Shown: piece by piece, positions 1-11,312 of the stretch
How the letters are laid out: each line of letters starts with the position of its first letter
Numbering within the stretch: the first letter of the stretch is position 1
NCBI GenBank assembly: GCA_020832555.1
Contig: JAFIEM010000034.1
Span: 1-32,532 of the forward strand
Origin: Natronohydrobacter sp.
GTDB lineage: Bacteria; Pseudomonadota; Alphaproteobacteria; Rhodobacterales; Rhodobacteraceae
Reading direction: 5' to 3'
DNA length: 32,532 nucleotides
The notes under the pieces: generated by a model
What the model saw: only the letters and a program-made list of their open reading frames with translations
What the model was told of the DNA's origin: nothing
Database searches by the model: none
Position numbers and translations under genes: made by a program

Positions 1-1
1 G

Positions 2-688
2 CTCAAGCGTCCTGCGCGCCGGATTTCCCGGCTGGCGCAGCGCCGCCGCAGTCGCCTCGCCGATCACCATCGTCATCTGCCGCCCGCCACGCCCGTCGGG
101 TTCGTCGCGGGTTGAAACCGGCTGGCCAGAGTAGTTGTGCACGTTGACCGGCATATGCAGCACGGGTGCTGCGTCCGCATCTCGCGCCCGCCCTGCATAT
201 GTGCTGGGCGGCGGCGCGGGTACATGGCCGAATGCTGCCCCCTTGGCAAACGGGCGGATGTTGAGATTGGCAGGCAGCTCGACCCCGAGCTTGCCCGAGG
301 CCAATCGGGTCAGCGGCAAGGTGGTTTCGCGCCCCTCGAACATCGCGCCCACGCCCATCCCCATGGCATGGGTCAGCGGCATGATGGCCTCTGGCCCGGC
401 CTCACCCATCACGCCGAGCTGGCCCGGCCGGTCGCCATAGGCAAAGAGCGTGGGCGCTCCGACGACATCACCCAAAGCGTTGGGCACGACACCCCTCGGA
501 AGCGAAGGAGAAGCGGCACCCGATGTGCCGCCTGAACCGCCAAAGATCTTGCTCAGCCAGCCACCGCCACCGCCACCGCCACCGAGCAGCATCTGCAAAA
601 ACTGATCCGCAGCGAGATCAGCGAGACGCGCCGCGATCCGGTCGAGCGCATTGACGAAGGCATCGCTGGCGCTCAAGCCCCGAGCGCA
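2..688 (-). pseudogene. Tail tape-measure protein, C-terminal fragment (Mu-like prophage)
   Basis: This minus-strand reading frame is open from the left window edge and is cut by it, so it has no visible stop. It contains MGEAGPEAIMPLTH (around 370-409), the signature I recall from the C-terminal part of phage tail tape-measure proteins. Upstream is an AFVNALDRIAARLADLAADQ stretch and a run of eight or more glycines encoded by GGCGGT repeats (about 560-582). A complete tape-measure protein would be many hundreds of residues long, and no tape-measure start or body is present here. The frame simply emerges, around 670-688, from inside the portal gene, which is read in another frame. I infer that this is the surviving 3' end after an internal deletion. 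Codon use (high GC3) looks coding throughout. Confidence 0.75.
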
Positions 689-1289
689 GCGGCAGGCCGG
701 ACTTGGCCGCGATATTGGCATAGATGAAGCGGAACGGCTCCAGCGGGGATTCCCGCCCGTCCTGCAATACCATGCGCGGGGTGGTCAGATCGGACCGCTC
801 GAAACGAAACAGGCGCGGATCCCAGCGCTCCAGCCTGAGCGGCTGCCACTGGCCTTCCGACCTGTCCCAGTCGATCCGCGTGAATGAGACGCCCTTGCCC
901 AGACAGTCGAGAATATCGAACATTTCCTCGGTCAGCTCGTCACGGCGCAACCAGTCGCGGATCATGTCGGCGATCTTCACGTCCTCGGGGGCGTCAGAAG
1001 CGGCCTCGATCGTGATCTCGATCTGGCTGACCGAACGCTTGCGGGTGCCGAGCACACCGTGATAATGCGCATCGCGCTCTTCCATGGCCTCGGCAAGTTC
1101 CAGATAGCGCACGGGCTCTCCGGCATCGGCTGCGCGCAGGATCGCGGCCAGCGACAGCGGATCGAGCCCGTCTGCCGGATAGCCTGAAAGCGGCGAGCGG
1201 ATACCGCCATACATCGGCATCTGTTCGGTGAGTTTCCCCCGGCTGACCGGATTGCCCCAGCGGTCCAGAAGTTGTGGTGTTTTCGCCAT
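618..1289 (-). CDS. Portal protein, DUF935/Mu gp29-like, C-terminally truncated
   Basis: The start at 1289 has AAGGGG seven bases upstream and gives MAKTPQLLDRWGNPV, a typical DUF935 start. The next 200 residues fit the family: a region of short helices, IRDWLRRDELTEEMFDILDC, and WDPRLFRFERSD followed by PFRFIYANIAAKSGLPLRSG. DUF935 portals are usually about 450-530 residues and continue after the KSGLPxRxGL motif. Here similarity stops at that motif, and the frame ends within 20 unrelated residues at 618 because it has run into tape-measure sequence in the wrong frame. The normal role would be the dodecameric portal ring through which DNA is packaged, next to the terminase. The truncated product is very probably non-functional. 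It lies 11 bases downstream of the terminase stop. Confidence 0.8.
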   Translation of the reverse strand: MAKTPQLLDRWGNPVSRGKLTEQMPMYGGIRSPLSGYPADGLDPLSLAAILRAADAGEPVRYLELAEAMEERDAHYHGVLGTRKRSVSQIEITIEAASDAPEDVKIADMIRDWLRRDELTEEMFDILDCLGKGVSFTRIDWDRSEGQWQPLRLERWDPRLFRFERSDLTTPRMVLQDGRESPLEPFRFIYANIAAKSGLPLRSGLERQRCLRQCARPDRGASR

Positions 1290-1300
1290 GGCCAATCCCC

Positions 1301-2740
1301 TTAAAGCCGCCCGGTGATGCGCGCGCCAAGCGGCCCGTCCCACCAGCCGCGTGCGTCGCTCTCGAACATTGCCTGCCTGTCACCCACGCTGTTGAGATCA
1401 GGACGTGGCGCGGGCTGATACCCGTAGACCCTCGGGCCTTCACGCGCGGCCGACACGGCCAGCGCACCTGCCCAGAAGCGGTCCGCATGCCCGTCACTGT
1501 CTCCATCGGCGATCAGACGACGCGCGCCGGTGACGCCCACGACACTCTTGATCGCATGCAGATCGGCGCGCAGCAGCCGGTCACCTGCGGGCAGACGCGC
1601 GCGGCGATCCTGCATGGTCTCTTTCAGCGCCGTCGCCATATCCAGCTTGGCGGGTGCCGTGAACAGAACTCCCTCGACGCGCAGCGCACCATGGCGGCGC
1701 TGCGCATCCTCGACCGGTTTCTCGCCCATGCCGGTCTGGTCCATCCGCACGCGCACCACATTGAAGCGGCGCATCACGTCATCAAGCAGCATGTCCTGCT
1801 CGGCAAAGCTGATCCGGCGGCGGGCGATGATCTCGCGCGTCCAGAGCACATCGCCCACTTGTTCCAGAACCCAGATCACAAACAGGTCATTGCGCGCCGC
1901 GATATCGACGCCGACGAAACAGGGGCCACCGCCATATAGCTCGGGGAGACCTGCCTCCGGATGCTCACAAGACGAGATAAGATCGTAATCCAGCCAGGCG
2001 CTGGCCTCATCGAGCCATTTCAGCTCGTATTCCTGCGCCCAGGCATCTTCGTCTGCCATGCCCTTGCGCAACATGTCGATGTCGCGATCGAGGCCCTGGC
2101 GCACGGCCTCATAGATATCGACCACATGACGCGACCAGACACTGTCCTCGGCGGTCATCAGCTCATAGAACTTGTTGCCCTTGCCATTGGGCGTCGAGAT
2201 CACGCGCAGCTTCAGGCCGGATTTCGAGGTCACCGGAAACAGCGCCGCCCAGATTTCGCGAGATTTCGCATGGAAGCCAAATTCGTCGAGGATCACATTG
2301 GCCGAGAAGCCCCGCGCTGTGTCCGGATTGGCAGGCAGCGCCGTGATGCGCGAGCCATTCGGGAACTTGACCTCAAGCTGCTTGTAGACCGCATCGGGGC
2401 CTTTCTCCTGCGGCGCGCGGAACTCGCCCTCTTCAAAGCGCGGCTCGCCGCCCTTTAGAAGGGTGTTATAGACCTCGTAAAACCCCTTGGTGAAGGGCTT
2501 GATGACCTCGGTCATCATCTCGGCCGCCTGCCGCTCTCCGCGCGACAGGATCACCCAGCGCGCGCGCCGGTCCTCGATCCATGCCTGAAAGCAATCATCC
2601 GCGCATTCGCCACCGGTGCTGAAGGTCTTGCCGGTCTGGCGCGAGAACATGCCGATCTTGAACCGGCTCTGATCCATGATCCAGCGGTTCTGGTAGGGCA
2701 GGAAGTTGACGACACGGGAAAGCGCGGGGTCAGCTGGCAT
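1301..2740 (-). CDS. Terminase large subunit, Mu gp28-like
   Basis: A 479-residue protein with the two parts expected of a phage DNA-packaging motor. The N-terminal ATPase has a Walker-A-like loop SRQTGKTF (residues 33-40) and a Walker B VILDEFGFH (149-157), followed by the STPNGKGN coupling motif (182-189). The C-terminal RNase-H-like nuclease starts with GVDIAARND (277-285), where D279 would be the first metal ligand. I chose the ATG at 2740 because GAGG sits six bases upstream and it overlaps the preceding gene's stop by 11 bases. The upstream in-frame extension is in the neighbouring gene. The length is normal for Mu-type gp28 and the frame is undamaged, unlike the portal next to it. It normally acts with the DUF3486 protein as small subunit. 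Confidence 0.88.
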   Translation of the reverse strand: MPADPALSRVVNFLPYQNRWIMDQSRFKIGMFSRQTGKTFSTGGECADDCFQAWIEDRRARWVILSRGERQAAEMMTEVIKPFTKGFYEVYNTLLKGGEPRFEEGEFRAPQEKGPDAVYKQLEVKFPNGSRITALPANPDTARGFSANVILDEFGFHAKSREIWAALFPVTSKSGLKLRVISTPNGKGNKFYELMTAEDSVWSRHVVDIYEAVRQGLDRDIDMLRKGMADEDAWAQEYELKWLDEASAWLDYDLISSCEHPEAGLPELYGGGPCFVGVDIAARNDLFVIWVLEQVGDVLWTREIIARRRISFAEQDMLLDDVMRRFNVVRVRMDQTGMGEKPVEDAQRRHGALRVEGVLFTAPAKLDMATALKETMQDRRARLPAGDRLLRADLHAIKSVVGVTGARRLIADGDSDGHADRFWAGALAVSAAREGPRVYGYQPAPRPDLNSVGDRQAMFESDARGWWDGPLGARITGRL

Positions 2741-3049: not shown

Positions 3050-3298
3050 CTACCTCTTCGGCTTTGGTGGTGGGGGCGTGGTCGGGGCGCTCGCGATCAA
3101 GCCGCGCTTCTCATCGATACACCACAGATAGGGCACGCCCTTCCAAACCGTGATGCGATTGAGACAACCCAGGTGATCGACCACGCGATGCGCACCAAAA
3201 ATCACCGCCGCGATGCGCGTGGTCCAGGGTGCATCGCGCCAATGCGCATCGGCGGCGAGGACAAGAATCGAGCGGCGGATGCCGGCAGCGTCAATCAT
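3050..3298 (-). CDS. Hypothetical small phage protein
   Basis: An 82-residue protein starting MIDAAGIRRSILVLAADAHW and ending in a proline/lysine-rich tail (TTPPPPKPKR). I prefer the ATG at 3298, which overlaps the stop of the Acb2-like gene by eight bases and has a GGGGG run about nine bases upstream. ATGs at 3304 and 3307 are alternatives. The middle part (ITVWKGVPYLWCIDEKRG) is compact and hydrophobic, and there is no clear transmembrane segment. I do not recognise the family. Its tight spacing on both sides supports translation as part of the phage operon. Confidence 0.5.
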   Translation of the reverse strand: MIDAAGIRRSILVLAADAHWRDAPWTTRIAAVIFGAHRVVDHLGCLNRITVWKGVPYLWCIDEKRGLIASAPTTPPPPKPKR

Positions 3299-3548
3299 CG
3301 GCATCATCCCCCGGCAGGCTGATCCGCGCGGGCTGCATGATCGCGCGGGTGATCGACATGAACCCCTTCTCGACATCGGTGCGCCCCGTGGCCAGCCAGC
3401 GCTTGTCGGTCTCGGGCATCTCAGCCAGATCATCGAGCGCGCGCAGGAGCTTTTCCTCATGGTGCTTCATAGCGCGCACGATCGCGCGCGCCCCGGGCGA
3501 CTGGGGCCGGTATCCGGGCAGCGGCAGGCCCTCAACTGGATTGCTCAT
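3291..3548 (-). CDS. Acb2/Tad1-like cyclic-nucleotide sponge (candidate anti-CBASS/anti-Thoeris)
   Basis: An 85-residue protein with GGGAG eight bases before the ATG at 3548. After a short N-terminus with the PGYRPQSP motif, it has a long helix (KHHEEKLLRALDDLAEMP) and then TDKRWLATGRTDVEKGFM, followed by RAIMQPARISLPGD. This [D-x-RW-x-x-x-x-RTD-x-x-x-GFM-x-x-x-RA] pattern is the one I associate with the small helical-hairpin family now named Acb2/Tad1. Phage members of that family bind cyclic oligonucleotide or cADPR-like signals made by CBASS and Thoeris defences. Family membership is by remembered pattern; the sponge activity is inference. It overlaps its upstream neighbour's stop by four bases (ATGA) and is intact although the genes on either side of the block are truncated. 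Confidence 0.7.
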   Translation of the reverse strand: MSNPVEGLPLPGYRPQSPGARAIVRAMKHHEEKLLRALDDLAEMPETDKRWLATGRTDVEKGFMSITRAIMQPARISLPGDDADD

Positions 3549-3760
3549 GCGGCAACTCCCTGCTGGATCAAAACACAAAGGGTGCGGTCGCGGATGGGAA
3601 TACCCAGCTCCCGGCTCAGATGCACCGCAACCTCGGCGATGCGCGGAGCCTCCTCCTGAAGATGCTCGATGCAGGCGCCGGGATCGGCGAAGCTGTCCGC
3701 GCTCTTGAAGGTGGCGACTGGCCCAGGCAGCGACAGAAAGATGACGACGGCGTGGATCAT
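3545..3760 (-). CDS. Hypothetical small phage protein with hydrophobic N-terminus
   Basis: A 71-residue protein beginning MIHAVVIFLSLPGPVATFKS, a short hydrophobic stretch that might be a weak signal or membrane anchor. It is followed by an acidic helical part (ACIEHLQEEAPRIAEVAVHL) with two cysteines in the chain. The start overlaps the DUF3486 stop and the end overlaps the Acb2-like gene start, both as ATGA junctions, so the three are probably translationally coupled. I do not recognise the family. Confidence 0.55.
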   Translation of the reverse strand: MIHAVVIFLSLPGPVATFKSADSFADPGACIEHLQEEAPRIAEVAVHLSRELGIPIRDRTLCVLIQQGVAA

Positions 3761-4224
3761 TCCCCAAACCCCATGATGCGCCGCGCCTTGGCGGCGGCTT
3801 CCTTGTCGATGTCTCCGGCCTCGACGGCCTCATCCAGCTTGGCGGCTTGCGCCTTGCGCTCGGCCACGATCAGGCTTTCGCGAATGCCAGAGGACGCCAT
3901 CACGTCCTTCAGCATCCGCCCCAGAAAATGCAGCTCTTTCGGATCAATCTGGCCGCCTTCCTTCAGCATCTGCGATTGCATGACCTTGAAGGCGAGTGTG
4001 GTGATCATCTGGAAGAGCACGTTGTGGCGCTTGGCTTCCTCGGCCAGACCCTGTTCCTGCATCCAGTCCGCCGCCCAGGCACTGGCCTGTTCCTGATATT
4101 TGACGAATTCCTCGTATTCCTGCCCGAAGGCATGAAGCGCGGATTTGCGGATGCGCAGGTCAAGGCCCGCTTCTTCCAGCCGGAAGTTCAGCGCCTCGGC
4201 AAGATCCTCATATCCGCCGCCCAT
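3757..4224 (-). CDS. DUF3486 family protein (Mu gp27-type small terminase), N-terminally truncated
   Basis: The 155-residue frame matches what I recall of DUF3486: GGYEDLAEALNFRLEEAG, KSALHAFGQEYEEFVKYQEQ, a core containing HNVLFQMITTLAFKVMQSQM, then DPKELHFLGRMLKDVMASSG and a C-terminal AKARRIMGFGE. Family members normally start with 25-40 further residues including a (K/R)(I/L)D-x-LP motif and a GFGGY turn. Here everything before GGYEDL is missing. The only available ATG (4224) has no Shine-Dalgarno and lies inside the end of the DUF3164 gene in another frame. The upstream frame gives no DUF3486-like extension. I infer a deletion endpoint at about 4220-4226. The protein is the probable small terminase/DNA-recognition subunit partnering gp28. 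Any expression would depend on coupling to the upstream gene. Confidence 0.75.
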   Translation of the reverse strand: MGGGYEDLAEALNFRLEEAGLDLRIRKSALHAFGQEYEEFVKYQEQASAWAADWMQEQGLAEEAKRHNVLFQMITTLAFKVMQSQMLKEGGQIDPKELHFLGRMLKDVMASSGIRESLIVAERKAQAAKLDEAVEAGDIDKEAAAKARRIMGFGE

Positions 4225-4616
4225 TCATTCAGGCATTCATCGATCAACTCCTTGGCGATCTGCAACTGGGGGCCGAAGTCGATGTGATCGGCCACCTGCA
4301 CCTGCACCTTGTAGAGCCCGTCATGGCTCATGAAGGTCTTGTTGCCCTTGGCACCGCCCTTGGTCTGCCCGTATTCCTGCGCCAGCAACGCCTCCAGCGC
4401 GCCAAGGTCCTCGAACACATGCCCCTTGAACCGCGCGACCTGTTCGCTCAGCGCCATGGCATAGCCCATGATCTTGCGCACGGTCTCGTCCTCAAGCTGG
4501 CTCGCAGGCGCGACCAGCTCGAGGGGCACAAGATTGCCTTTTGCATCGACCATGTAGATCTGGCCGCCGACACGAATGCGGCCATCAGGGATCGGGATGG
4601 GGGTGAACTCAGTCAT
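4188..4616 (-). CDS. DUF3164 family protein, C-terminally truncated
   Basis: A 142-residue protein starting MTEFTPIPIPDGRI with GAAAGGAAG seven bases upstream. It shows the DUF3164 pattern: YMVDAKGNLVP near the start, a long helix ending in EDLGALEALLAQEYG, then KGNKTFMSHDGLYKVQVQVA, FGPQLQIAKELIDECLNEW. Mu-like phages carry this family in the early-middle region; its function is not established. Members I recall are about 200 residues and continue after the ECxxEW motif with a conserved RALV...RLDI...W...I...VVGSKxYxRFYER tail. Here that tail is absent: seven residues after EWAAD the frame stops, having entered the DUF3486 gene out of frame. This makes the C-terminus a deletion product. Confidence 0.78.
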   Translation of the reverse strand: MTEFTPIPIPDGRIRVGGQIYMVDAKGNLVPLELVAPASQLEDETVRKIMGYAMALSEQVARFKGHVFEDLGALEALLAQEYGQTKGGAKGNKTFMSHDGLYKVQVQVADHIDFGPQLQIAKELIDECLNEWAADMRILPRR

Positions 4617-4650
4617 GAGATCTTCCTTTCAGGGTTTTCGGGGTAAGAAG
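4562..4650. repeat. Direct repeat copy B (~90 bp), DUF3164 gene start
   Basis: This 89-bp stretch is an imperfect direct copy of 4768-4859. On the minus strand both copies run from LTPKTL-type codons (CCGAAAACCCT), through an AAAGGA ribosome site, to the ATG and the first ~14 codons (ending GCCGATCCC or CCGATCCC, then TGATGGCCGCATT). The longest identical block is about 21 bases. The repeat spans a gene end, an intergenic site and a gene start, so it looks like a recombination unit rather than convergent sequence. Confidence 0.8.
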
Positions 4651-4822
4651 CGCGTGGGGCGGGGATATCCGACAGCACGAGGAAGAATGGCATCTCGGCC
4701 ACCCGACCGCAGGCGGCCACACCATCGGCAAGACGCATGGCAATTGCGACGCTGCCAGTCTCGACCCGGCCCTCGACATCAATGCGGCCATCAGGGATCG
4801 GCATTGGGGTGTGTTCAGACAT
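4613..4822 (-). CDS. Small phage protein with DUF3164-like N-terminus
   Basis: A 69-residue protein. Its first 18 residues (MSEHTPMPIPDGRIDVEG) are a near copy of the N-terminus of the following DUF3164 protein (MTEFTPIPIPDGRIRVGG). The rest (IAMRLADGVAACGRVAEMPFFL) is unrelated to DUF3164. It starts inside the end of the preceding gene (8-base overlap) with AAAGGA upstream, and overlaps the DUF3164 start at its stop. In another frame its last codons read LLTPKTLKGRSHD, matching the end of the preceding protein (LLTPKTLMKGPSDV). The gene is therefore bracketed by the two copies of a ~90-bp direct repeat. It is probably translated but may be a by-product of a duplication or insertion. Function unknown. 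Confidence 0.5.
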   Translation of the reverse strand: MSEHTPMPIPDGRIDVEGRVETGSVAIAMRLADGVAACGRVAEMPFFLVLSDIPAPRASYPENPERKIS

Positions 4823-5653: not shown

Positions 5654-6216
5654 CACAGACCCCCGAGATGCGTGAATTCGCACAGATTGTCGTCATAGAT
5701 CGCGCGCACTCGCCGCTCGCGCGGTGGCATCGGTCCGGTATTGCGGATCAGGCGGTACACGGCCTCGCGCCGACCGGGCTGGGCCTTACGTATGACCTTC
5801 AGATAGGCTGCGCGCACAAGACACTGACAATAGGCCTGAGCCTCGGAAACGCTGACAGGGCAGGTCGCGGTATTCGCATGCGCGGCAATATCGGTCGGCG
5901 TGAACTGCGGCAAGCGGCGCATGGCCGTCCAGCAGTTGCCCTGAATGGTTTCTTCACGCCGCGCGCGCCCGTCTGGCCGCAGGCTGGCAGGGGTGGTTTC
6001 TCCCGCCACCACGCGGAACATGATCAGACCGTTGCGCTCGCGCCGGGCCTCGATCACGACGCCCTGCCGCAGCCACCCGGTGACCAGCGCCTGCACGCCC
6101 GAGCGCGAGACTTCGGCCTCACCGGCAAGCGAATGATAGGTGAACTCGCCAAGGCGGACCGCCGCCTGCCAGATCAGGGCATGACGCGCCCGGCGCATAT
6201 CCTGCACTGCACTCAT
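5653..6216 (-). CDS. Winged-HTH phage protein downstream of MuB
   Basis: A 187-residue basic protein. Residues 10-60 (ALIWQAAVRLGEFTYHSLAG, then VSRSGVQALVTGWLRQGVV) read as a winged helix-turn-helix, and a second similar module may lie around PQFTPTDIAAHANTATCPVS and EAQAYCQCLVRAAYLKVI. The C-terminus (EAVYRLIRNTGPMPPRERRV) looks like the second wing and a proline-rich linker. Tandem winged-helix proteins of this layout are common unassigned genes after the A-B transposition genes in Mu-like phages of Rhodobacterales. The start overlaps the MuB-like stop by four bases (ATGA). Its function is unknown; a DNA-binding role is likely. Confidence 0.65.
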   Translation of the reverse strand: MSAVQDMRRARHALIWQAAVRLGEFTYHSLAGEAEVSRSGVQALVTGWLRQGVVIEARRERNGLIMFRVVAGETTPASLRPDGRARREETIQGNCWTAMRRLPQFTPTDIAAHANTATCPVSVSEAQAYCQCLVRAAYLKVIRKAQPGRREAVYRLIRNTGPMPPRERRVRAIYDDNLCEFTHLGGL

Positions 6217-6956
6217 GCGACTTCCCTCCTCGGCGCGGGTGCCGCCCCGGTGAAGAACCGCCTGATGTCGTAATCCTGAAGACGCATATGCTCGCGCCCG
6301 AGCTTGTGCGCCTCGCTCGCGATATCAGCGATATTGACGCTCAGCCGCCGGATCGACTTGTTGGAATGCTTGAGACAGGCCTGCCGCAGGTCAGCGGCAA
6401 TCCCGATCCCGCCGGAATAGATCGGCAAAAGCTTCTCCAGATCATCCATGCTCGCGGGATCGGCTCCGACCCATGCCAGCATCCGCCCATGCACCCGCTC
6501 CCATTCCTGCAACTTCTGCGGCAACAGCTCTTCACCGATCAGGATGACCGGAGCCTGACTGCCCTCATAGATATCGCGCACCAACTCGATCATCTTGCGC
6601 GAGACCAGGTGATCTGCCTCATCGATCAGGAGCGGCACCCCGGTCACTGCCAACCGCTCAGAGATCTGGTCGATCATGTCGCCGATCGTCCGCGCGGGTC
6701 GAAGCGACATTTCCGAAAGGATCGCCTCGCAGAACTTTTTCTTGGACCAGGCCGACTTGACCTGAACCTGAAACGCCTGGAACCGGTTCTCGGCATAGAC
6801 GGCCGAAGTGCTCTTCCCGAACCCTGACGGGCCGTAGAAACACGCCATGCCGGGCAGGCCAAGCGCCCGGTTTTGAACCCTGTCGATCAGCGCGACCAGC
6901 GCCGCCACATTGCGCAGAGGCGCAACGCTGTTGTATAGCTGCCTGTCATCTGTCAT
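6213..6956 (-). CDS. DNA transposition protein B, AAA+ ATPase (MuB-like)
   Basis: A 247-residue AAA+ ATPase. The Walker A is GPSGFGKST (residues 42-50) and the Walker B is LLIDEADHL (109-117). It ends with a lid-like helical segment (GIGIAADLRQACL, then KSIRRLSVNIADIA). In Mu, B binds target DNA in an ATP-dependent filament and brings it to the A transposase, and gives target immunity. I use the ATG at 6956 because TGGAG lies six bases before it; the in-frame ATG at 6968 would put that site inside the coding region. It lies about 60 bases downstream of the transposase stop and overlaps the next gene. All motifs are intact. Confidence 0.88.
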   Translation of the reverse strand: MTDDRQLYNSVAPLRNVAALVALIDRVQNRALGLPGMACFYGPSGFGKSTSAVYAENRFQAFQVQVKSAWSKKKFCEAILSEMSLRPARTIGDMIDQISERLAVTGVPLLIDEADHLVSRKMIELVRDIYEGSQAPVILIGEELLPQKLQEWERVHGRMLAWVGADPASMDDLEKLLPIYSGGIGIAADLRQACLKHSNKSIRRLSVNIADIASEAHKLGREHMRLQDYDIRRFFTGAAPAPRREVA

Positions 6957-7017
6957 TCTGAACTCCATTCATCTGCTCTTGCCGCCGGAACTGCAGGCCC
7001 GCAGTCCCGGCGGTTCC

Positions 7018-9126
7018 TCATCCGAGGTAGCTTTCCCCGAAATCTTCCAGCATCCGCTTCTGTGCGCGGTATTCCGAACTCTGTGTGTAACTGCGCAGGA
7101 ACCGCTCCTGCTCGGGCGCAAGCACCGCGCCGCTCTCACGGCGCGCCTCCAGTTCCAGCGCGCGCTTGAACCGCGCGATCTCGGTCTCGACCGGCTCGGC
7201 CGGGGCATCCCTGCGCGCCTGAAACTCCGCCACGATCGCGGATTGGCTCTGTGAGACATCAGGAGCCGCGACATCCGGTGCCACCACTGGCTTGCGCGCC
7301 TTGAACACTGGCCTGACGACCTTCGCTTCAAGTGCAGGCGCGATATGGGGTACAGGGGCCGCGTCCAGATCATCGCCCAATTCGCGCGCGGTCATCTTGC
7401 GATGCGCGGCCACTGCAGCACGCTCGGCCTTCATCCAGGCCGCGCGGTCGCGGGCCGTGCGCCGCGCCTCGTCGATGGACAGGAAGCCGCCCTTTCTGCG
7501 GGCAGGCGCATGGCCCAGATAGGCATTCTCAAGCGAGTAAAGATGCAGACCGTCCCATAGGTCAACCGGATCAAACCGCGCAATCACGCGCTTGCCCGCC
7601 AGGTCATGCATCCACGGTGCCCAGTACTGATTGCCCCGAAACACCAGCTCGCCAGTTCTGGAATTGCCGCGCAACCCCTTGGCACCCATCAGCCAAAGAC
7701 GCCGTTGTGCCTCAGTGGCCTTGCGGATGGGCGAGCGCTCGTAACTCTCCTCGAACACCTCCGCAAAGGACCGGCCCCATGCAACTTCCGAGCGCCGCCC
7801 CTGCCGCAGGTTATGCTCCTCGATCCCTTCGGCAACGATACGCTTGAACTCTTCAAGCGGGATCGCCCGGTTGCCGTAATTCTCGGGCTTGGCGTCGATG
7901 GTGTTGCCGGTCCACGCGCCCTCGAAACGCGGGTCACGGCTGATCGCATCACACATATCGCGGAAGGCCCGCTCGATGGGCTTGGACTGCCCGCTATAGG
8001 GGGTAGCCCAGTGGATTTCGCATCCCAATGACACGAACAGGCCGGGTATATCGTCTTCCAGCACCTTGAACCGGAAGCGGGTTTTTGCCCCGCCCGTCAC
8101 CAGTTTCGATGCAAATTCCCGGCCATTGTCGAGCACCACATGATCAGGAATGCCCCAGTCCTCGATCATGTCGCCTGCCGCCAGCATCACCCCGCTGGAA
8201 TTGGCGGTCAGATCAAGACGCCAGGCCAGAATACGACCCGAATAGACATCCTGAAACGCCACCATCTGCGGGCGCACGGGTGCTGCCTCGCCGGGCCAGC
8301 GCACGAAGACATCGAACTTGTGATAATCCGCATTGACCACTTCCAGCGCGCGCAACGCAGACTTGTCGCGTACCTGTGCCGGGAACATGCGCTTGAGCCG
8401 GTCCAGCCCATAGCGTGCCAGAACCTCGGTCGGACGTGAGACCTGCTCCTTGTAGCGCCGCCGCACGGTATGCTCTGGCGCGATGCTCCAACCCTTGGAC
8501 TGCGCCACCCGTATGGCCCGCCGATAGCAGGTCGCGAAGCTGGGCCGCGTCAGCCGCAGATAATCCGATTTCAGCCAGTCCATGAAATCCGGATCAACAG
8601 CGTCGCGGGTCTCCTTGCGCTTCGCCGCACGATGACGCGGGGCCAGATAGGCCAACCGGTCGTCGCGCCGCACCCCCTCGATCAGCGACAGCCAGTTCCA
8701 GATGCTACGCGCACTGACACTTTCCATCCGCGCAACCGTCTCGACCGCCATATAGCGACCATCCTGGCCTTCCAGCGCCTCGACCGCCTGGATGCAGCGC
8801 AGCCGCGCGCGCGCCTTGTCCTGCACACTTTCCGGCAGCCCTTCAAACCACTGCCAGGCTGCATCCCGCGCGACCGGCAAACTCGCCACAGGCGCTTGTG
8901 CCTCGCTCAGCAGCTTGCGCTGCGCCCGCGCGGGCAGCGCTTTCCAGTGATATTCCCAGCCGCCACCACGCCCCGCTCGCTTGCGGGCATAGTCCGGATG
9001 CGCGCGCAGATGGATACGCTTCACCCAGAGCTCTACGCCTTTTTGTGTGTTTGCTATATCGGGTAATCCGGCCTCTGCCAGATCGGACGCCGTCCACCAT
9101 ATGCGCTGCGGGGCAAGCTCGCTCAT
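7018..9126 (-). CDS. Mu-type DDE transposase A
   Basis: A 702-residue transposase. The N-terminus (RIWWTASDLAEAGLPDIAN) is the Mu-type DNA-binding domain. The RNase-H-like core has ADYHKFDVFVRW (D267), VVLDNGREFA (D333) and QSKPIERAFRD (E385), matching the MuA D-D-E triad in order and spacing. Further MuA-like landmarks are LVTGGAKTRFRFKVLEDD and the following beta-barrel region. The C-terminal 100 residues are basic with charged helices, where MuA contacts MuB and ClpX. The ATG at 9126 overlaps the stop of a small upstream frame (ATGA). It catalyses strand transfer for integration and replicative transposition at the phage ends. It is slightly longer than MuA (663) and shows no damage. Confidence 0.92.
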   Translation of the reverse strand: MSELAPQRIWWTASDLAEAGLPDIANTQKGVELWVKRIHLRAHPDYARKRAGRGGGWEYHWKALPARAQRKLLSEAQAPVASLPVARDAAWQWFEGLPESVQDKARARLRCIQAVEALEGQDGRYMAVETVARMESVSARSIWNWLSLIEGVRRDDRLAYLAPRHRAAKRKETRDAVDPDFMDWLKSDYLRLTRPSFATCYRRAIRVAQSKGWSIAPEHTVRRRYKEQVSRPTEVLARYGLDRLKRMFPAQVRDKSALRALEVVNADYHKFDVFVRWPGEAAPVRPQMVAFQDVYSGRILAWRLDLTANSSGVMLAAGDMIEDWGIPDHVVLDNGREFASKLVTGGAKTRFRFKVLEDDIPGLFVSLGCEIHWATPYSGQSKPIERAFRDMCDAISRDPRFEGAWTGNTIDAKPENYGNRAIPLEEFKRIVAEGIEEHNLRQGRRSEVAWGRSFAEVFEESYERSPIRKATEAQRRLWLMGAKGLRGNSRTGELVFRGNQYWAPWMHDLAGKRVIARFDPVDLWDGLHLYSLENAYLGHAPARRKGGFLSIDEARRTARDRAAWMKAERAAVAAHRKMTARELGDDLDAAPVPHIAPALEAKVVRPVFKARKPVVAPDVAAPDVSQSQSAIVAEFQARRDAPAEPVETEIARFKRALELEARRESGAVLAPEQERFLRSYTQSSEYRAQKRMLEDFGESYLG

Positions 9127-9875: not shown

Positions 9876-10544
9876 ATGGACCCGATTCTATCAGAGATCG
9901 AGAAAGCCCTAGAAAATAAGGGCTTGAGCGCTGCGGCAGCCTCTATGATGGCCGCAGGGCACTATTCTTTGATAAAGAACATGAAGGCTTCGAAGGCTGG
10001 CGGTAAGCGCTACAGTGTTGAGACACTTGAAAAGCTAGCTGAAGTCCTCGGTCTCGAACTGTATTTTGGCCCGCCGAGAGGTGCCGATCCCGAACCGCCT
10101 GTGCTCGATATCGACGGCGATGATTTCGCGGCGATTCCGCGCCTCGCGGTGGAAGCCAGCGCAGGCACAGGCGCGCTCAATGACGACACCCCCGAGATCG
10201 TGGGCAAACTCGCCTTTCGCCGCGACTGGCTGCGCAAGATCGGCGTGAAACCGGACCGCGCGATGCTGATCACCGTCACTGGCGACAGCATGGCCCCCGA
10301 CCTGCGCCCCGGCGATCTGGCCCTGATCGACCAGGACCGCAACGCCTGGGAACACAACCGCGTCGTGGCGCTCGTCGATCTCGATGGCGGTCTGCGCATC
10401 AAGCGCGTGCTCCTCGACCCCGGTCGCGCCATGGTTCTCGCCTCTGACAACCCCGCCCATCTGCCCGAACTGCGCACGAAACACGAAGCTGCGCGCCTGA
10501 CATGCCTCGGGAGGGTGGTCTGGTCAGGGCGTCATTGGGAATAA
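9876..10544 (+). CDS. Prophage repressor, HTH plus S24 (LexA-like) autopeptidase
   Basis: A 222-residue protein. Residues 1-65 form a small HTH domain (LSAAAASMMAAGHYSLIKNM, then YSVETLEKLAEVLGLELYF). Residues 90-222 are an S24 peptidase: a possible self-cleavage site in AVEASAGTGA (A96-G97), the nucleophile in TGDSMAPDLRPGD (S138) and the general-base lysine in LRIKRVLL (K176). Such repressors hold lytic genes off and cut themselves when RecA is activated, so induction by DNA damage is expected. The gene is divergent from the early operon across the GGCTAA array, which it probably binds. No Shine-Dalgarno is visible before the ATG, consistent with a near-leaderless mRNA. All catalytic residues are present. 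Confidence 0.88.
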   Translation: MDPILSEIEKALENKGLSAAAASMMAAGHYSLIKNMKASKAGGKRYSVETLEKLAEVLGLELYFGPPRGADPEPPVLDIDGDDFAAIPRLAVEASAGTGALNDDTPEIVGKLAFRRDWLRKIGVKPDRAMLITVTGDSMAPDLRPGDLALIDQDRNAWEHNRVVALVDLDGGLRIKRVLLDPGRAMVLASDNPAHLPELRTKHEAARLTCLGRVVWSGRHWE

Positions 10545-11146: not shown

Positions 11147-11196
11147 AACCCCTTATTTCCTTGACCTATTCGTCATAGCCCTTCCACAGACGGTCA

Positions 11197-11273
11197 CTTC
11201 CGGTTTCCTGCAGATATCTCTGTCAACGCACATTGTGTGTGCGTTGACAGAGATATGTGCAGGAAACCGGAAG
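11197..11273. repeat. 77-bp near-perfect palindrome
   Basis: Two 36-base arms (11197-11232 and 11238-11273) are exact inverted copies except for one mismatch, separated by a five-base loop (ttgtg). The outer ends are CTTCCGGTTTCC and GGAAACCGGAAG; the inner part is CTGTCAACGCACA. This is far longer than a typical terminator stem, has no adjoining T-run and lies about 210 bases outside the inferred prophage end. It could be a small inverted-repeat element or a remnant of two copies of some element end. Function not known. Confidence 0.85.
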
Positions 11274-11312
11274 AGGCCGGGGGTCGGTGGTCTGAAGCAG
11301 CGGTCCTGAAAG

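Follow-up and report, generated by a model that had tools for sequence, protein, structure and literature searches.

A shortened DUF3164/gp27 gene pair in a Mu-like prophage of Natronohydrobacter sp., probably the scar of an internal deletion

The contig of Natronohydrobacter sp. analysed here (JAFIEM010000034.1, assembly GCA_020832555.1; its 32,532 nt are referred to as the window) carries a Mu-like prophage in which the genes for DUF3164 and gp27 (DUF3486) are both shortened and meet at one place. This place (junction 1) is likely the scar of an internal deletion of ~4.2 kb, one of two scars in the element. The deletion reading follows from the genes on both sides, which keep to their families as far as one point and are broken beyond it, and from the relatives, which carry a block of genes in between. 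Moreover, the element has two joints, and its DUF3164, gp27, and portal genes are broken; judged from its sequence, it looks like a grounded (cryptic) prophage in which the deletions are recent.

The early region and the large terminase subunit are encoded as follows.
9876..10544, + strand: S24-type repressor (PF00717, phrog_4).
7018..9126, − strand: MuA-like transposase of 702 aa (PF02914, PF09039, PF09299), without frame break.
6213..6968, − strand: MuB-like target DNA activator ATPase (phrog_296), aligned over residues 5–251 of 251 to the Mu-like prophage G455.
1301..2734, − strand: terminase large subunit, TerL (PF03237, PF17289), without frame break, in an ORF that extends to 2872.

MuA and MuB in tandem are a feature of Mu-like transposable prophages. 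The order in the window, that is repressor, A, B, regulators, DUF3164, gp27, TerL, and a portal gene like that of Mu gp29, is also that of G455 and of the Rhodovulum phage vB_RhkS_P1 (P1; KX077179, deposited as a complete genome). G455 resembles the window over nearly the full length of MuA (residues 6–702), MuB, and TerL (residues 5–477 of 477). In both G455 and a further Mu-like prophage, G284, the DUF3164, gp27, and portal genes and a weakly related tape-measure gene lie in the same order within one element; the G284 contig starts inside MuB, and its early region is outside view. A complete set of head and tail genes, likewise a Mu-like feature, is absent from the window, where the portal is cut at residue 207. 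In RcapMu and RcWaterboi, the transposition, lysogeny-regulation, and lysis genes lie to the left of central terminase genes [PMC8601537, in the part drawn on here].

The features at junction 1 are these.
4188..4616, − strand: DUF3164 gene, 142 aa, matching PF11363 positions 1–115 of 194 only.
4213..4219, − strand: junction 1, the overlap of DUF3164 homology (left parent) and gp27 homology (right parent) in the DNA alignment with L053.
3757..4224, − strand: gp27/DUF3486 (terminase small subunit family), 155 aa, matching PF11985 positions 24–168 of 173 and phrog_426.

The closest relative found is L053, a Mu-like phage fragment from IMG/VR (IMGVR_UViG_3300000352_000077), in which DUF3164, gp27, the next gene, and TerL follow in the same order as in the window with 81–89% DNA identity, both flanks being collinear. 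In the DNA alignment, bases 1817–1376 of L053 pair with 4213–4650 of the window and bases 6462–6000 with 3757–4219, and base-by-base comparison shows a stretch of 7 nt, 4213–4219, that belongs to both homologies. A reading made earlier from the sequence alone had proposed that both genes change at one place and had put it at 4220–4226; the single place is upheld, while the L053 alignment moves the site to 4213–4219. The same reading had DUF3164 running out of frame after ECLNEWAAD, and the alignment with 16 relatives agrees: the protein is family-like to this motif and then continues with MRILPRR and a stop. Relative to L053, it is cut after residue 135, and 81 C-terminal residues of the L053 version are replaced by seven out-of-frame residues; in the profile comparison with the family genomes it covers positions 2–132 of 211. 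The N-terminal truncation proposed for DUF3486 was likewise confirmed, as gp27 lacks ~27 N-terminal residues relative to 14 aligned relatives and covers profile positions 28–171 of 171. Its ATG now lies inside DUF3164 DNA, and the gap from DUF3164 to gp27 is −12 bp. Both shortened frames are open. Chance would not be a reasonable cause of this pattern.

The stretch shared at junction 1 is at most ~8 nt long, which is an upper bound on any microhomology; a GGCGGAT microhomology is possible. Full-length structure models of the L053 proteins give a mean pLDDT of 69 for gp27, with block means of 74–91 over residues 1–60, and of 73 for DUF3164. In the gp27 model, the residues lost from the window protein would correspond to the first two helices. 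Neither full-length model had a PDB match at E 0.001 or better.

Upstream of the DUF3164 gene, a second DUF3164 start, MSEHTPMPIPDGR, lies at 4776–4822, where it opens a small ORF (window 4613–4822) and then gives way to other sequence. This second start is nearer to L053 than the real DUF3164 start, and the ~206 bp at 4613–4822 look like a diverged duplication or a recombination scar.

What would have been lost at junction 1 can be seen in L053, which differs from the window in having 4,182 bp between the two breakpoints. From the DUF3164 side, this block comprises the remainder of that gene and two small genes, then GemA (PF06252) and one more small gene. There follow a Mor-like late activator (phrog_836), genes for a lysozyme (PF00959) and a holin-like protein (phrog_3427, E 6e-6), and DUF2730; one small gene more and the beginning of gp27 close the block. 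In the window, the middle block (GemA, activator, and lysis genes) is absent from between DUF3164 and gp27. The sequence-only reading had expected that gemA/mor and lysis genes separate the two genes in Mu-like phages, that none of them is visible in the window, and that several kilobases were deleted; the 12-bp overlap and the collinear L053, with its intervening genes as predicted, support these points, with the qualification that the content of the block varies among phages. Lysozyme and holin of the L053 type have matches in G284 and in C131, a second Mu-like prophage contig of the same assembly, but none in G455 or in P1, which has an annotated amidase in its middle block instead; the Mor-like gene has a match in G161 and a weak one in C131. 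Searched against the window's own assembly, the L053 middle block found only the C131 version of the lysozyme–holin part, at 72%. The same difference in spacing sets the other relatives apart from the window: P1 has 3.18 kb between DUF3164 and gp27, with middle and late blocks present, and G455 and G284 have 4.5–4.7 kb.

Near junction 1, a stretch of 0.7 kb that is missing from L053 separates gp27 from the next gene of the shared order and holds one further gene.
3291..3548, − strand: Acb2/Tad1 hairpin-domain protein (PF24729, E 2e-13).
It likely serves as a counter-defence against nucleotide-signal immunity; the literature search found no paper that treats Acb2 together with Mu-like phages.

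How the two genes are spaced elsewhere was examined in 120 loci, seven from phages and genomes, 33 from a gp27 scan, and the best 80 of 244 from a DUF3164 scan. Both genes occur in 48 of the 120 loci (43 distinct records), and the gap between them is 2,814–5,389 bp in each; gp27 occurs without DUF3164 in nine. In a second sample of 394 family genomes from 393 genera, gp27 matched in 28, the window's own genome included. It is complete from profile position 1 in all 27 of the others, and in 20 of the 27 stretches fetched around it DUF3164 is present and reaches profile position 210 or 211 each time, with a gap of 2,884–6,689 bp in each of these 20 genomes. DUF3164 was not found in the other seven stretches, even at E 10; two of these (L251 and L260) stop at a contig end and five do not. 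The sequence-only reading had turned to close relatives for the same short proteins side by side, and this arrangement was found in 0 of the 48 loci and 0 of the 20 genomes with both genes. The exact junction 1 gave no match in viral contigs, and among 243 loci it is present in the window's own locus only. Among 59 other genomes, 35 of them from the same genus, with at most five first-look candidates scored per genome, no DNA match over the gp27 stretch was listed. DUF3164 itself is a common companion of such phages: in the part of PMC5488378 drawn on here, proteome analysis of two Mu-like-head roseophages detected the protein, and prophage-like elements of the Mu-like-head type are described as often harbouring it.

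The second scar lies closer to the contig end.
618..1289, − strand: portal (Mu gp29-like) remnant, PF06074 positions 2–144 of 336; 207 family residues of ~500, then out of frame.
665..670, − strand: junction 2, where the portal breaks off at codon 207 and passes, out of frame, into a tape-measure 3′ part.
2..673, − strand: 3′ part of a tail tape-measure gene (P0001), phrog_8892 at E 4e-7 and four further tape-measure families.

On a profile built for this work, the window portal covers positions 1–206 of 501; a portal was found in 25 of the 27 other genomes, and in these at least 409 positions are covered. In the seven of 16 records that matched, portal homology stops at residue 207; in the DNA it stops at base 670. 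The portal of L053 is more distant, and G069 covers the window portal over a far longer stretch (69% over 2–621) than the L053 record does (70% over 140–261). On the other side, tape-measure homology starts at residues 3–12 of P0001 in several genomes, and the gene part runs off the contig end; it has no Pfam match. From portal residue 207 to the matching tape-measure point the distance is ~12.0 kb in G455 and 10.9 kb in G284, so that these prophages differ from the window by ~11–12 kb here too. P1 differs in having annotated capsid, virion morphogenesis, and tail genes.

These distances suggest that ~11–12 kb were lost at junction 2, with a parent that is less sure than at junction 1. None of the seven portal-bearing late-region records matches the tape-measure tail, even at E 0.01. 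Its relatives reach at most 64% identity, over short parts; eight weak ones were found in viral contigs and one in genome contigs, and the Pelagibaca phage vB_PeaS-P1 gave one partial match (45% over residues 153–224). Matches occur in 234 of the 394 genomes, mostly weak and many of them in frames of only ~215–270 aa, which are perhaps the tape measures of gene-transfer agents. Because no portal-bearing late region matches it, its relatives are weak, and the matching frames are short, the tape-measure part could come from another phage type. The exact junction 2 gave no match in viral contigs. When the 19.9-kb late region of a relative was searched against the window's own assembly, it matched window 670–1289, where the portal served as positive control, and one 28-nt stretch; in this assembly, which is 86% complete, a capsid/tail block of that relative's kind was not found. 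Two P1 proteins, the capsid and the long tail protein, had no match in the window's own genome, in searches that carried no positive control.

The surviving genes bear on the age of the losses. Compared with L053, the gp27 remnant has a dS of 0.64 and a dN/dS of 0.034, the DUF3164 remnant 0.77 and 0.13, and TerL 0.88 and 0.16; for the portal remnant, compared with G069, the values are 1.03 and 0.25. The gene remnants thus bear purifying selection, which suggests constraint until recently and young losses. The losses look recent because the remnants are under purifying selection and MuA, MuB, and TerL show no frame break relative to G455.

Taken together, a model with two deletions can be proposed. 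One would have removed ~4.2 kb with the activator and lysis genes at 4213–4219, the other ~11–12 kb at ~670. Illegitimate recombination across very short matches, in the manner of slipped-strand or end-joining deletions, would have united the ends; at junction 1, this fits the short stretch shared there. In this model, the Mor-like activator, GemA, lysozyme, and holin would be gone, gp27 would be without its first helices, and the portal would be reduced to 207 of ~500 residues in an element in which no capsid genes were found; the prophage is predicted neither to make nor to release particles. The frames of the repressor, the transposase, and MuB are whole, and the element may still repress and transpose.

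Other explanations of the joints have been weighed against deletion. In an assembly of metagenome type, chimeric reads or scaffolding could have fused separate pieces of a single Mu-like phage or of several. Such an artefact is unlikely, although the setting lends itself to one: the assembly consists of 238 contigs, is 86% complete, and holds two Mu-like prophages, on C184 (the window) and on C131, and one end of the window is an assembly fork.
1..55, + strand: contig end common with the start of C131, identical base for base, after which the two differ at once.
Contig ends (70 in all) were compared for common ends of at least 15 nt. Eleven of 40 further sampled contigs are wholly N and were the source of pairs matching over 400 bases; with these dropped, 48 readable ends remained, among which four pairs share sequence, exactly 55 nt each, the window and C131 being one pair. 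An overlap of 55 nt seems to be what the assembler used. A plain mis-join at junction 1 is unlikely because contig ends share 55 nt (in four of four pairs) against at most ~8 nt there, and overlap alone is unlikely to have made junctions 1 and 2, since both lie inside the contig, 4.2 and 0.67 kb from its end and away from the fork. In addition, the window holds no N, and searches of the rest of the assembly found neither a middle nor a late block of a close relative in intact form. Within this explanation, chimeric reads or a rare variant are possible.

If recombination between different phages, rather than loss from one, had made the joints, the mosaic nature of Mu-like phages would account for it, and the second DUF3164 start that resembles L053, the longer cover of the portal by G069 than by the L053 record, and the unmatched tape-measure tail would fall into place. 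As an explanation of the joints, such exchange is improbable. Both sides of junction 1 are collinear with one relative, L053, and a function-preserving exchange would not leave the two genes cut out of frame; at junction 1 it was rejected because of this collinearity. Junction 2 in particular may be an exchange, since the tape-measure tail is unmatched in the seven portal-bearing late regions. That the window represents a compact phage type which never had a middle block is highly improbable. Both short frames are open and gp27 keeps an ATG, as such a form would require, but none of the 48 loci and 20 genomes with both genes shows it, and DUF3164 without its conserved C-terminal part, gp27 without its first helices, and a portal that is cut as well do not fit a natural short form. 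The spacing in relatives and the searches for the exact joint, absent from viral contigs and confined to its own locus, led to its rejection.

The deletion reading places the element among known systems. In the part of PMC6379469 drawn on here, prophages that lose parts by deletion and are kept in the chromosome are well known, and the window resembles the grounded (cryptic) prophages described there in both respects; what sets it apart is that the position of one joint is known to within a few bases and that its early genes for transposition are whole. Thus far, junction 1 has not been met in those portions of the literature on natural mini-Mu, prophage remnants, and prophage deletion with microhomology that were consulted (PMC6379469 and PMC11406979 included). 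The element appears to be an ordinary case of prophage decay of a known kind. What it offers is a well-mapped transposable prophage that two seemingly recent deletions have disarmed, with activator, lysis, and particle genes out and the early region whole, and it follows that the prophage should be annotated as deleted and not as a compact phage.

A second prophage of the same assembly shows similar features. On C131 (L039), MuA differs from that of the window, DUF3164 is whole at 216 aa, and GemA-like and lysozyme genes are present along with one that is weakly Mor-like (E 0.001). Within its bases 1–1000, the match of the holin-like gene ends at residue 103, where the gene passes into the tape-measure 3′ end that the window also has, and this prophage looks cut as well. 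Junction 2 at ~670, the cut-looking prophage on C131, and the 55-nt fork had all escaped the sequence-only reading. The 28-mer at the contig end gave no match in viral contigs.

Mini-Mu elements are laboratory deletion derivatives of Mu. The window resembles them in that the transposase genes and, likely, the left end are kept and the inner genes are gone; it differs in that its right end is off the contig and the element is known here from sequence alone. The window prophage and its C131 neighbour have both retained the transposase, MuB, and repressor genes together with the start of DUF3164, and both are without the particle genes, their joints ending in the same tape-measure gene; in the window, A and B are whole and one likely end is present, the second lying beyond the contig. 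It is decidedly improbable that the two are natural mini-Mu elements, movable and packageable by an intact helper phage together with long host DNA. Should the window element still be mobile with the aid of a helper, it would represent a naturally occurring equivalent of laboratory mini-Mu.

At the other side of the element, a candidate end can be placed.
11191..11232, − strand: likely left prophage end, which, read inward, begins TGTGCGTTGACAG; contig C83 of G024 is homologous as far as 11232.
The ends of Mu begin with TG. Within 11191–11281, two near-identical phage-end sequences (36 nt, one mismatch) face away from TTGTG at 11233–11237, and this arrangement looks like the left end of the prophage beside a ~43-nt remnant of another Mu-like end, with a 5-bp target site of the size used by Mu between them. 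The right end of the prophage lies beyond the contig of the window. In G024, a genome of the same genus, bases 16–544 of contigs C83 and C170 (L043 and L042) match the N-terminal stretch of the window MuA, which suggests that this genome, too, may hold two related Mu-like prophages. Finally, ARAGORN called no tRNA in the window, and by eye the right contig end, 32475–32532, looks like the first part of a tRNA gene that is cut by the contig end.
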